Position numbers and translations under genes: made by a program
The notes under the pieces: model-generated
Databases searched by the model: none
What the model was told of the DNA's origin: nothing
What the model saw: only the letters and a program-made list of their open reading frames with translations
From: Natrinema sp. SYSU A 869
Lineage (GTDB): Archaea > Halobacteriota > Halobacteria > Halobacteriales > Natrialbaceae
Direction: 5' to 3'
Length of the DNA: 64,000 nt
NCBI RefSeq assembly: GCF_019879105.1
Contig: NZ_CP082249.1
Location: 2,852,001-2,916,000 of the forward strand
Part shown: piece after piece, positions 21,743-28,376 of the stretch
How the letters are laid out: each line of letters opens with the position of its first letter
Position numbering within the stretch: position 1 is the first letter of the stretch

Positions 21743-21809
21743 CGCTGTCGGACGATGCGAATCGCCGGCAGCGCGGACGGCTCGGCGAGCGGTGCGATCG
21801 GTCACTGTT

Positions 21810-24395
21810 ATGGCCGTCGAACCCACAGCTACCACTGTGAGCGATCGACGCGCGGAGGGCGATCGGGACGGCCGCTGTCGGCTGTGCGGGACGCTGCTCC
21901 CGGAGCCCGACGGCGAGTCGCCGTCGGACGAGTTCTGTTCGACCGGCTGTCGAGACGTCGCAGCCGAGTTCGGGACAAACGACGGTGTGACGAGCGACGA
22001 CAGCGACGGCTCCGCCGAGGATAGCGACCCCCCCTTACGGTCCGTTGACCGGCCGGCTGATCCGCGACCGACCGCGACCGCAGACGACGAACGACCGGAC
22101 GGGACCGTCCGCACGTTCTTCCGGGTCGACGGCATGCACTCCGCGACCTGCGAGGCCTTCCTCGAGGCCGTCGCCGAGGGCCGCGACGGCGTGGACGACG
22201 CTGAGGCGAGTTACGTCACGGAGACGATCCGGGTCGATCACGATCCCGATCGAATCTCGACCGACGCGCTCGAGAACGCGCTGAGTACGCTCGGCTACAC
22301 GGCCTATCTCCGGGACGACGCGACCGCTGACGACGAGACGGGCGGAACCCAGCGCTCGCGCGAGATGTCCGGACTCCGAAAGCGCCGGTCGGACGATATG
22401 CTCGAGATGCGATACGTCGTCGGCGTCGTCTTCGGTTCGTTCCTCCTGTTGCCGTTCGTGGCCGTCCTCTACCCGATGTTTCTGACCTCGTTTACCGACT
22501 GGGGCGCGATCGAGCACTTCGAGGGCGCCTTTACCGGCTTCAGCGGGCCGCTGTATCTGCCCCTGTTTCTCATTCTGACGGGCGCGATCATCTACCTGAC
22601 CGGCGGTCCGCTCTTGCGGGGCGCGTACGTCAGCCTGAAACTCCGGCGGCCCACGACAGACCTGCTTGCAGTCTTCACAATACTCAGCGCGTACGTCTTC
22701 AGCATCCTCGTCTCCGGGCTCGGGCGCAACGATCTCTACTTCGATCTGACGATCGTCGTGGCCTCGGTCGTGATGGGCGCGACCTACTACGAGGCGACGG
22801 TCAAGCGCCGCGCGACGGACCGACTGACCGACCTCACCGTCTCGCAGGTCGACACCGCCCGGCTCTACGCCGGAGACGGCTCGACGACGGAACTCCCCGT
22901 TGCCGACCTCGAGTCGGGCGACCGCGTGCTCGTCCGGGAGGGCGAGCGCATCCCCGTGGACGGGACGCTGTCCGAGGGCGAGTGTACTGTCGACGAAGCC
23001 GTCGTGACGGGGGAGTCGCTCCCGGTCACGAAAGCGGCGGGAGACGACGTGGTCGGCGGCTCGGTCGTCACCACTGACGCGGCGGTGGTCGACGTCGGCG
23101 AGCGGACGACCAGCAGCATCGAGCGGCTCACGCGGGTCGTCTGGAACGTCCAGAGCGCTGACCACGGCGTCACGCGGCGAGCCGACGAGTTCGCCGCGAC
23201 CCTCGTCCCGATCGTCCTCGCCGCCGCAGTCGTCGTCGGCGTGGGTTCCCTCCTCGCCGGCGCGAGCGGGCTGACCGCCTCGCTGGCCGCCCTCATGACG
23301 CTCATGGTCGCCAGCCCGTGGGCGCTCGGCTTCGCGACGCCGTACTCCGTCGCCGCGAGCCTTCAGGAAGCCCTCGAGCGCGGCATCGTGGTCTTCGATG
23401 AGACGGTCTTCGAACGCCTCCGCGCGGTCGACGTCGTCGTCTTCGACAAGACCGGCACACTCACGACCGGCGAAATGACCGTCCGCGAGGCCGACGCCCC
23501 CGACGACCTGCTCGCGGCCGCCGCCGCCCTCGAGCAGCGAGCGGCCCACCCGGCAGCGGCAGCGATCGCCGACGCGTTCGGGAGCAATGGAGGCGCGTTC
23601 GAAGATGACGACGGGACGGCTCGCGCTGACGGCGGCTCGACCGCATCCGGCGAACTGACCGTCCGGGAGTTCCACACCCATGCGACCGGCGTCGAGGGAA
23701 CCGTGGACGACCGGACGGTACTGGTCGGCCACCCCGACCTCTTCCGGGATCGGGGGTGGACGCTCGAGTCCGACCTCGAGGCACGGATCGATCACGCACG
23801 AGAGGCCGGTCGGCTCCCGATCGTCGTCGGCCGAGATGGGACCGCCGAAGGGGTCGTGATCGTCGGCGATGAGCCCCGCGAGGCGTGGGACGAGACGATC
23901 GCGGCCCTGGACGAGGACGGGGTCGACGTCGTGGTCCTGACCGGCGACGACGGGACGGCGGCCGATGTCTTCGATCGCCATCCGGGCGTTGACCACGTCT
24001 TCGCCGGCGTCTCGCCGGACGGAAAGACGGCGACGGTCGAGCGGATGAAGACCGACGACCGCGTGGCGATGGTCGGCGACGGGACGAACGACGCGCCCGC
24101 GCTCGCCGCGGCCGATCTGGGAATCTCGCTGGGTAGCGGGACGGCGCTCGCCGCCGACGCGGCCGACGTCGCGATCGTCGACGACGATCTCGCCGCGGTC
24201 GAACGGGCGTTCGCCCTGTCGAGGGCTGCACGCAGTCGAATACGGCAGAATCTCGGACTCGCGTTCGTCTACAACGCGATCGCCATCCCCGCTGCCGTGC
24301 TCGGTATCGTGAACCCGCTGGTGACGACCGTCGCCGTCGTAGCGGGGACCCTCCTCATCGTCGGGAACGCTGAGCGATCGCTCGTCGCGGAGTGA
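21810..24395 (+). CDS. Heavy-metal P1B-type ATPase, FixI/CcoI-like, with an SPW transmembrane motif
   Basis: An 861-residue membrane pump. Residues 23-47 carry a Cys cluster (C23, C26, C43, C47) like the N-terminal domain of FixI/CcoI ATPases. Next comes an HMA-like domain (about 99-170) whose metal loop reads GMHSATC, so it keeps only one Cys. The actuator TGES is at 400-403, the phosphorylation motif DKTGTLT at 546-552 and the hinge VGDGTNDAP near 751. The intramembrane motif, normally CPC, reads SPW at 502-504, removing both Cys. Transport of copper therefore cannot be assumed. The ATG at 21810 is preferred to a GTG at 21792. Confidence 0.88.
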   Translation: MAVEPTATTVSDRRAEGDRDGRCRLCGTLLPEPDGESPSDEFCSTGCRDVAAEFGTNDGVTSDDSDGSAEDSDPPLRSVDRPADPRPTATADDERPDGTVRTFFRVDGMHSATCEAFLEAVAEGRDGVDDAEASYVTETIRVDHDPDRISTDALENALSTLGYTAYLRDDATADDETGGTQRSREMSGLRKRRSDDMLEMRYVVGVVFGSFLLLPFVAVLYPMFLTSFTDWGAIEHFEGAFTGFSGPLYLPLFLILTGAIIYLTGGPLLRGAYVSLKLRRPTTDLLAVFTILSAYVFSILVSGLGRNDLYFDLTIVVASVVMGATYYEATVKRRATDRLTDLTVSQVDTARLYAGDGSTTELPVADLESGDRVLVREGERIPVDGTLSEGECTVDEAVVTGESLPVTKAAGDDVVGGSVVTTDAAVVDVGERTTSSIERLTRVVWNVQSADHGVTRRADEFAATLVPIVLAAAVVVGVGSLLAGASGLTASLAALMTLMVASPWALGFATPYSVAASLQEALERGIVVFDETVFERLRAVDVVVFDKTGTLTTGEMTVREADAPDDLLAAAAALEQRAAHPAAAAIADAFGSNGGAFEDDDGTARADGGSTASGELTVREFHTHATGVEGTVDDRTVLVGHPDLFRDRGWTLESDLEARIDHAREAGRLPIVVGRDGTAEGVVIVGDEPREAWDETIAALDEDGVDVVVLTGDDGTAADVFDRHPGVDHVFAGVSPDGKTATVERMKTDDRVAMVGDGTNDAPALAAADLGISLGSGTALAADAADVAIVDDDLAAVERAFALSRAARSRIRQNLGLAFVYNAIAIPAAVLGIVNPLVTTVAVVAGTLLIVGNAERSLVAE

Positions 24396-26378: not shown

Positions 26379-27839
26379 ATGTGGCAGGGGGAGGGCTACT
26401 GGCTCGTCCGCGTCGTCTTCCAGCGGGGGCTCGCACTGTTGTACTTGCTCGCCTTTCTCGTCGCGGCCACCCAGTTCCGGCCGCTGGCCGGCGAAGACGG
26501 GTTGTTGCCCCTCGAGTGGTACGTCGAGGGGGTCTCGTTCCGTGATCGGCCGAGCCTCTTCTATTTCGTCCCGACGGATCGGGCGATCGGGGTCGCGGCC
26601 TGGAGCGGCGTCGTGCTGTCGGGGCTGGCGCTGATCGGGGTGCCGTACTGGCTGCCAGCGGGAGCTGCGACGCCCGTTTCGATGGTTCTGTGGGCAATGC
26701 TGTGGGCGCTGTACCTCTCCTTCGTGAACGCCGGGCAGACGTTCTACGGCTACGGCTGGGAGTCGATGCTCTGTGAGACCGGGTTCCTCGCGATCTTTCT
26801 CGGGGCTGGGTCGGTCGCACCGCCGTTCGTGGTCATCTTACTCCTCCAGTGGGTGCTCTTTCGCAACATGTTCGGTGCCGGGCTGATCAAGCTCCGCGGC
26901 GACGACTGCTGGCGCGATCTGACCTGCATGGACTACCACTACGAGACCCAACCGATCCCGAACCCCGTAAGCTGGTTCGCCCATCATCTGCCGGCTCGGT
27001 TTCATCGCGTCGAGACCTTCGGGAATCACGTCGTCGAGTTGCTGGTGCCCTTTTGCTACTTCGCGCCCCAGCCGCTGTCGGCGCTGGCAGGTGTCGCGAC
27101 GATCGGCTTTCAGGGCTGGCTGCTGGTCACCGGGAACTTCGCCTGGCTGAACGCGATCACGATCGTACTCGCGATTCCGACGTTCAGCGACGGGACGCTG
27201 GCGGCCGTACTCCCGATTTCCGCGCCCACCACCGCGCCGACGCCGCTGTACCTCGGGGTCCTGGTGGTCCTTCTGGCCGTGCTCGTCATCGTTCTGAGCG
27301 TCCAGCCGGTGCGAAACATGCTCTCTGAACGACAGCTCATGAATACGTCGTTCGATCCGCTCAATCTGGTCAACACCTACGGCGCGTTCGGGTCGATAAC
27401 GCGGGATCGGTACGAGGTCGTCATCGAGGGGACGACCGACGAGGAGATTTCGGGGACGACCGAGTGGCAGCCGTACCGATTCAAGGGGAAGCCGACGGAC
27501 CTCGAGCGGCGGCCGCCACAAGTCGCGCCCTACCACCTCCGGCTCGACTGGCAGCTATGGTTCGCCGCGATGTCGCCCAGCCCACGCCGGAGCCCGTGGT
27601 TCCTCCGGTTCCTGGCGAAGCTCCTCGAGGCCGACGACGAGACGCTCGCCTTGCTCGCCGACGACCCGTTCGACGGCGAGCCGCCGTCACGCGTCCGCGC
27701 AATTCGGTACCGCTATCGGTACACGACGCCGGAGGAGCGAGCCGAGAGCGGCCGCTGGTGGGCTCGCGAGCGCGTTGGGACGTACGTGAAGCCGGTCTCG
27801 CTCGAGGAGTTGCAGGTCCGCCAGCCGCGATTTCGGTGA
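26379..27839 (+). CDS. Lipase maturation factor family membrane protein
   Basis: A 486-residue protein with about eight membrane helices. It matches the LMF1/LMF2 family: the opening W..R..FQRGLALLYLLAF, the conserved core LLQWVLFRNMFGAGLIKLRGDDCWRDLTCMDYHYETQPIPNP, and the soluble C-terminal domain with PYRFKGKP and PPQVAPYHLRLDWQLWFAA. In animals LMF1 helps lipases fold in the ER; the archaeal role is unknown. The convergent neighbour is a DCC thioredoxin-like protein, a pairing that suggests a shared envelope function. Confidence 0.9.
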   Translation: MWQGEGYWLVRVVFQRGLALLYLLAFLVAATQFRPLAGEDGLLPLEWYVEGVSFRDRPSLFYFVPTDRAIGVAAWSGVVLSGLALIGVPYWLPAGAATPVSMVLWAMLWALYLSFVNAGQTFYGYGWESMLCETGFLAIFLGAGSVAPPFVVILLLQWVLFRNMFGAGLIKLRGDDCWRDLTCMDYHYETQPIPNPVSWFAHHLPARFHRVETFGNHVVELLVPFCYFAPQPLSALAGVATIGFQGWLLVTGNFAWLNAITIVLAIPTFSDGTLAAVLPISAPTTAPTPLYLGVLVVLLAVLVIVLSVQPVRNMLSERQLMNTSFDPLNLVNTYGAFGSITRDRYEVVIEGTTDEEISGTTEWQPYRFKGKPTDLERRPPQVAPYHLRLDWQLWFAAMSPSPRRSPWFLRFLAKLLEADDETLALLADDPFDGEPPSRVRAIRYRYRYTTPEERAESGRWWARERVGTYVKPVSLEELQVRQPRFR

Positions 27840-27882
27840 TCAGTTCCGGTCGGTGGCGATGTTCGTGAGGTCGTTGGTTCGG

Positions 27883-28269
27883 TCACCCGTCGTCGGATTT
27901 CTGGCGTGCCGGCGGCGTCTTCGAGAGATACGTCCCCCAGCGATCGCGGTTGTCGGCGACCCACCGATAGGAGCGCTCGCGGAACCGCTCGTAGTCCTCG
28001 AATTGGCGGAGGAACTCGACCGCCTCCCCTGCCGGCTTGGCGATGTCCGTGCGGACGAACGCCTCCTCGATCGAGGCCCCACAGGAGTAGACACCGTCGT
28101 CGGTCACCAGATGCGAGCAGTCCTCGTACTCCTCGGGGAGTCGCTCGAGCATGTCGTCGGTGAGGTCGCTGAAGCCGACGATGCGGAGGTCCGTCCGCTC
28201 GTCGAAGTACTCTGCCCACCACGTACAGAAGCCGCAGTCGTCGTCGTAGACAAGTATCGCGTCGGTCAT
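27883..28269 (-). CDS. DCC family thiol-disulfide protein
   Basis: A 128-residue thioredoxin-fold protein of the DCC family, named for the motif seen here as DDDCGFC (residues 9-15). The CxxC pair could carry out thiol-disulfide exchange. SHLVTDDGVYSCGASIEEAF is the second conserved block. The start is the ATG at 28269 immediately before the first strand (MTDAILVYDDD). It converges with the lipase maturation factor gene with 43 bases between stops. DCC domains are also found fused to LMF-like or HTTM proteins in other organisms, which supports a functional link. Confidence 0.88.
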   Translation of the reverse strand: MTDAILVYDDDCGFCTWWAEYFDERTDLRIVGFSDLTDDMLERLPEEYEDCSHLVTDDGVYSCGASIEEAFVRTDIAKPAGEAVEFLRQFEDYERFRERSYRWVADNRDRWGTYLSKTPPARQKSDDG

Positions 28270-28376
28270 ATCTAGGCGAACGGGCTCGAGATACAAACGC
28301 TTGGCTCGAGGCGCTGGGGGCAGTTGACTTCCCTCGAGTGGCGGAATACTTTGGTCAGGGCGGCGAAGCGATTCCT

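Follow-up and report, generated by a model that had tools for sequence, protein, structure and literature searches.

The 64,000-nucleotide stretch of Natrinema sp. SYSU A 869 DNA analysed here (the window) carries on its forward strand, at positions 21810 to 24395, a gene encoding an 861-residue protein; an alternative in-frame GTG start lies at 21792. The gene was assigned to the P1B-type ATPases from its ORF and translation, from Pfam and NCBIfam searches and from an AlphaFold model. Pfam matches to the E1-E2_ATPase, HAD hydrolase and HMA families were found. The heavy-metal ATPase model TIGR01525 of NCBIfam accepted the protein (416 bits, cut-off 346), and its score against the copper model TIGR01511 fell below the cut-off (361 bits, cut-off 397). 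The structure predicted by AlphaFold2 from 48 sequences has a pLDDT of 82, and its best whole-chain matches are the copper ATPases HMA4, CopA and ATP7B (Z 22-25). The predicted model confirms the P1B fold; the fold does not indicate the substrate. As the initial annotation held, the ATPase motifs are intact: the TGES dephosphorylation motif (23007-23018), the DKTGT phosphorylation motif (23445-23459), the HP locus and the GDGTND hinge motif (24075-24092), all on the forward strand like every feature of the gene given below, are present, together with TGD and the MA and MB helices of P1B ATPases in general.

The P1B metal-binding motif is altered. Transmembrane helix M4 (23268-23378; modelled as helices 487-500 and 503-523) contains at its kink S502-P503-W504 in place of Cys-Pro-Cys, encoded by AGC CCG TGG at 23313-23321. 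The ORF translation thus bears out the SPW first noted at these residues, and the M4 xPx motif lacks the metal-ligand Cys or His expected of a P1B ATPase. The HMA-like domain (residues 100-168, 22107-22313) has the loop GMHSATC at residues 108-114, with a single Cys, as previously described, and Ser 111 in place of the first Cys of CxxC. At the N-terminus (21876-21950), in the region corresponding to the FixI/CcoI-like family PF12156, C23, C26, C43 and C47 remain. The claim that this cluster is intact was wrong by one residue, as C44 is lost and the FCCxGC of FixI/CcoI reads FCSTGC. PF12156 itself was weakly detected in one sister CPC protein and one CPW relative.

The E1-E2 ATPase family is matched six times in the host genome (5.67 Mb, three contigs). 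On contig C1 this genome encodes a CPC paralogue (L004) with FCCxGC, GMHCATC and the Met-Ser-Ser of TM8. Contig C3 encodes another P1B ATPase of unusual type (L003, 3208898-3209470), whose M4 motif is YPC and whose HMA loop is GMSCSFC; together with a second YPC protein, L051:12914-14524, it forms a long branch of its own in the tree. A close ortholog of the window ATPase was found in Natrinema gari as a 90% identical fragment (L104), and CRISPR-based genome editing has been published for N. gari strain J7-2 (PMC10433800).

The initial annotation proposed that conservation of SPW be checked in haloarchaeal orthologues. A search of 391 Halobacteria genomes with the window protein, with loci chosen on overall similarity to a lower limit of about 50% identity, returned two sets: 71 proteins with an xPW motif (58 SPW, 8 CPW, 3 TPW, 1 APW and 1 NPW) and 18 with CPC. 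Pro and Trp are kept in 71/71 clade members picked irrespective of motif, which for the Trp far exceeds chance, whereas the first residue varies among S, C, T, A and N, so that conservation of SPW holds for its last two residues. With 20 held-out loci picked by the PW pattern alone, the full xPW set comprises 91 members, ten of them CPW. In the tree the xPW proteins form one clade (SH-aLRT 100) nested within the haloarchaeal CPC clade, a result that did not change when marker columns were masked and bacterial FixI/CcoI and CopA served as outgroups. Because all xPW proteins form one clade inside the CPC set, the sequences indicate that Trp at position 504 arose once; no sampled member has reverted, and the first motif residue drifts. 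CPC orthologues, which had been expected to speak against a subgroup, were not what was found: the orthologues are xPW proteins, and the CPC proteins are the ancestral paralogue group.

The distribution of the clade was determined with a DNA pattern (PW, 40 codons, FDKTG) that replaced an overly permissive first motif pattern; few xPW genes were recovered by a scan of genome contigs, in which generic P-type patterns (VFDKTGTL) diluted the signal. Of the 391 Halobacteria genomes, 135 have the stricter pattern, and they represent 36 of 86 genera. In the family to which the window belongs, 89 of 101 genomes have it by our count. Among 393 genomes from across the phylum no signature was found outside Halobacteria, all 29 matching genomes belonging to that class. 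The reading of an ordinary CPC pump in which SPW is a local mutation or a sequencing error is refuted by the Trp in every one of the 71 clade members and by this distribution; nothing was found in its favour, and its probability is negligible.

Several CPW-type genes (in G024, G067, G088, G154, G221, G270, G297, G315 and G369) have identical displayed stretches in genomes of different families, which suggests recent transfer of this form across families, probably by plasmid. A divergent xPW member (L177, G218:C10) from family f11, whose genomes are small, reads SPWGMGLVAP, lacks C114 and has C392; it may be of use for dating the clade.

The altered M4 motif is accompanied by the loss of other copper ligands. 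By alignment, position 283 corresponds to M158 of AfCopA and positions 502 and 504 to C380 and C382; by helix position, 843, 846 and 847 correspond to M711, S714 and S715. These AfCopA residues form the copper entry and high-affinity sites, and copper binding is impaired by mutations in CPC, YN or MxxSS, whereas M158A left the stoichiometry unchanged (PMC9433437). The window protein has Thr at the entry position (T283, 22656-22658), where Met is found in 0/91 xPW proteins, which have Thr or Ala, and in 18/18 of the CPC sister group. The Met residues at 210 and 213 of the CPC set are likewise replaced in most xPW members. The MxxSS positions of M6 (24336-24350) read V843, G846 and T847. Across the xPW set Met 843 is absent from all 91 members and Ser occupies both 846 and 847 in three, against Met, Ser and Ser in all 18 CPC proteins. 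The sole canonical copper-site motif retained is Y821-N822 of M5 (24270-24275; Tyr in 87/91, Asn in 90/91). In the HMA loop C114 is kept in 86 members, five lacking it, and Cys 111 in eight, most of the others having Ser there; the four N-terminal cysteines are each kept in 89 or 90 of the 91 relatives, position 44 being Ser in 85.

One cysteine has been gained. C392 (22983-22985), in the actuator (A) domain eight residues before TGES, is present in 91/91 xPW proteins (71/71 picked by similarity and 20/20 held out) and in 0/18 of the CPC sister group, and it played no part in the choice of clade members. Neither this gain nor the lost Met and Ser ligands figured in the initial annotation. The two proposed marks of the clade, Cys 392 and a Trp as third residue of the motif, occur together in all 91, the window ATPase included. 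The catalytic residues are retained: D546 of DKTGT and D757, N760 and D761 of the hinge motif in every member, and in TGES the Thr and Gly in every member and the Glu in 89, with Asp in the other two. In the 20 held-out loci the catalytic positions are intact, one having Asp for the Glu of TGE, and Met 283 and Met 843 are absent from all. Within the membrane P503, W504, D312, Y821 and N822 are fixed or nearly so, and the acidic positions D312 and E328, which align with E189 and E205 of AfCopA, are kept.

A single clade in which one Trp and one newly gained Cys never vary, and from which copper ligands have been lost in a co-ordinated way, argues for an undescribed haloarchaeal P1B subgroup, xPW, as was among the initial suggestions; in sequence terms its single origin from a FixI/CcoI-like CPC copper exporter is well supported. 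Literature searches, from which the main P1B subgroup survey was absent, returned no paper on P-type ATPases with an SPW motif. The ligand losses also bear on the possibility that xPW proteins are residual Cu(I)/Ag(I) exporters using an alternative site, for example C502 of the CPW forms or a Cys at 846 or 847. The ten CPW members, the 16 of 91 with Cys 846 and the location of plasmid copies in copper islands would fit such a role. In the window protein, however, none of the canonical ligand positions in the membrane is occupied by Cys or Met, all 91 members lack Met at both the entry and the M6 position, and the CcoI C417A/C419A mutant moves no Cu(I) (PMC8475189), which makes a residual exporter improbable.

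Selection on the gene was assessed against congeners. Omega is 0.17-0.27 for the xPW gene and 0.07-0.09 for the CPC paralogue, and the xPW gene is therefore under purifying selection. Regional constraint was compared by pairwise identity in 11 species carrying both paralogues (55 species pairs). Conservation is equal for the A, P and N domains of the cytoplasmic part (0.64 in xPW, 0.62 in CPC) and for the HMA domain (0.60 in both), whereas identity over M4-M6 is 0.49 in xPW against 0.77 in CPC and is lower in xPW in 55 of 55 species pairs; as the pairs from 11 species are non-independent, the contrast is strong but does not amount to a formal test. Differences in M4-M6 divided by those in the cytoplasmic domains give a ratio of 1.40 in xPW, 0.59 in CPC and 0.77 across a mixed set of other P1B pumps, and wherever a divergence bin contains both groups the gap in M4-M6 conservation is present. 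Of the xPW helices M6 is one of the most weakly conserved (0.43-0.46, against 0.83-0.87 in the CPC sister), with 0.43 against 0.83 in the 11 species. M1 and M3 are relaxed too; MA, MB and M2 are much less so.

Relaxed constraint in M3-M6 and an omega above that of the CPC paralogue are also what a copper pump decaying into a pseudogene might display, and a single in-frame stop occurs in a few relatives. These xPW homologues (G166:C46, G198:C3, G227:C11 and G302:C28) each have one such stop, which may reflect decay or sequencing error. Decay is nevertheless largely refuted by invariance and has very little probability left: the core catalytic residues are present in all 91 members, W504 and C392 do not vary, the signature extends over 36 genera, conservation of the cytoplasmic domains matches that in the CPC paralogue, and omega is well below 1.

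In the window the ATPase gene is flanked by a GNAT acetyltransferase gene on one side and by a PPOX protein and MFS transporter pair on the other, and no copper genes are among its near neighbours; this setting offers no clue to function. At 26379-28296 the window also contains a pairing that is unexpected for an archaeon, a homologue of lipase maturation factor (LMF1) next to the gene for a DCC1-like thiol-disulfide oxidoreductase. When flanking ORFs from 58 loci were clustered, no partner was shared throughout the xPW clade, whereas the CPC sister gene adjoins a DsbD_2 protein gene in 10 of 17 loci. The commonest xPW flanking gene, found at 8 of 42 loci, encodes an unannotated membrane protein of about 400 residues with the Cys motif GTCTCGCCGP and no clear Pfam family (L061:8812-10044, reverse strand; L047, L051, L053-L055, L062 and L063). 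Plasmid-borne xPW members lie near cuproprotein genes, which include a cbb3-type oxidase, and near other metal ATPases. The island on pSTJ003 of Halobacterium hubeiense has a copper ATPase, an HMA protein, a plastocyanin-type protein, a multicopper oxidase and a CDF protein, and that of Halorubrum sp. CBA1229 has cytochrome oxidase I and II, COX15/CtaA, DsbB, a plastocyanin-type protein and a multicopper oxidase. These plasmid copper and redox islands loosely tie the clade to cuproprotein homeostasis.

P-type ATPases are taken as ion or lipid pumps with the substrate set by the M4 motif. For the xPW proteins, the explanation we tentatively prefer, at close to even confidence, is a catalytically competent subgroup that would no longer use the canonical site to pump Cu(I) and would act as an uncoupled or regulatory switch in copper and cuproprotein homeostasis. 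On the sequence evidence the membrane pathway for Cu(I), built on sulphur ligands, has been dismantled and M4 is fixed with a Trp at a ligand position; ATP hydrolysis and cycling would be retained. In Rhodobacter capsulatus CcoI, the C417A/C419A substitutions abolish Cu(I) transport and lower ATPase activity by only about 30% (PMC8475189), and with this precedent an xPW protein could still be expected to hydrolyse ATP. The cycle would then probably serve as an uncoupled or regulatory activity in copper or thiol homeostasis, in place of export. The six conserved cysteines (four N-terminal, one in the HMA-like domain and one in the A domain) would respond to metal or thiol state, a sensing role that we infer from their conservation alone. 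The specific form in which ion transport is absent and the E1/E2 cycle of a live P-type ATPase is a metal- or thiol-sensing switch, with the Trp as a plug and the A-domain and N-terminal cysteines as sensors, is conceivable, though we hold it with clearly less confidence.

The principal competitor is an active pump for another substrate that needs no sulphur ligands, either a cation that is harder or bulkier or a molecule that is hydrophobic or carries no charge; W504 would be a gate or a cation-pi contact in a path lined by Y821, N822, D312 and E328. It is kept alive by the fixed W504, D312, Y821 and N822, and the retained catalytic motifs, the acidic entry and exit positions and the fixed P503 are in keeping with it; P1B M4 variants with altered specificity, namely SPC, APC, CPH and TPC, are known (PMC9045314, PMC3922081). 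M6 speaks against it. In other P1B groups this helix carries a conserved motif that tracks specificity (MxxSS, D or HEGxT; PMC3922081), whereas that of xPW is poorly conserved and has no polar ligand fixed at 843, 846 or 847. Since a conserved M6 motif would be expected for a new specific ion, the non-pumping reading is favoured, and a pump for another substrate seems less likely. The concentration of relaxed constraint in the transport helices likewise favours a non-pumping or regulatory role over a new specific ion; a regulatory role and a different ion were the other two initial suggestions. Loss of transport constraint is on its own insufficient to establish a regulatory role, and some form of transport path may survive, because W504, P503, D312, Y821 and N822 are fixed and E328 and D312 are kept.

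A widespread, constrained clade that has an intact catalytic engine but has lost the ligands, with an invariant Trp in place of them, provides a natural setting in which to test whether an ATPase cycle can be retained for a purpose other than pumping. The automated label of cation-translocating or heavy-metal ATPase may mislead for the xPW gene in about one third of haloarchaeal genomes, and such possible mislabelling would affect models of copper homeostasis in haloarchaea.

Among known systems the nearest are CcoI and FixI, the CopA2-type P1B-1 copper exporters. They share with the xPW proteins the N-terminal Cys motif, the HMA domain, the A, P and N domains, the MA, MB and M1-M6 helices and the YN of M5, and the tree places bacterial FixI/CcoI as sister to the haloarchaeal CcoI-like CPC clade that encloses xPW. 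The differences lie in CPC becoming xPW (S502 and W504 in the window protein), FCCxGC becoming FCSxGC, GMxCxxC becoming GMxSxxC, replacement of the NMD Met by Thr, loss of MxxSS and gain of the A-domain Cys. The haloarchaeal CPC paralogue (L004) is about 50% identical to xPW and stands in direct ancestry to it in the tree. CoaT-type P1B-4 proteins resemble the window ATPase in the Ser of their SPC; they are marked by the third-position Cys and by HEGxT in M6 (PMC8880997), both absent from the window ATPase, in which the motif is SPW and M6 reads PLVTTVAVVAGTLLIVGN. Membership of P1B-4 through the Ser was thus ruled out by the third residue, by M6 and by the tree, in which the protein falls in the CcoI-like group. 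CtpG (APC) and the CPH, TPC and CPS proteins are, like the SPW protein, otherwise standard P1B ATPases with a variant M4 motif. The M4 variants CPC, CPH, SPC, TPC, CPS and APC, however, each contain at least one Cys (PMC9045314, PMC3922081), whereas SPW has none and carries an aromatic residue where the key ligand would be. Absence of Cys from the M4 motif is shared with the R. capsulatus CcoI C417A/C419A mutant, in which the loss was engineered; in xPW it is natural, clade-wide and accompanied by other changes.
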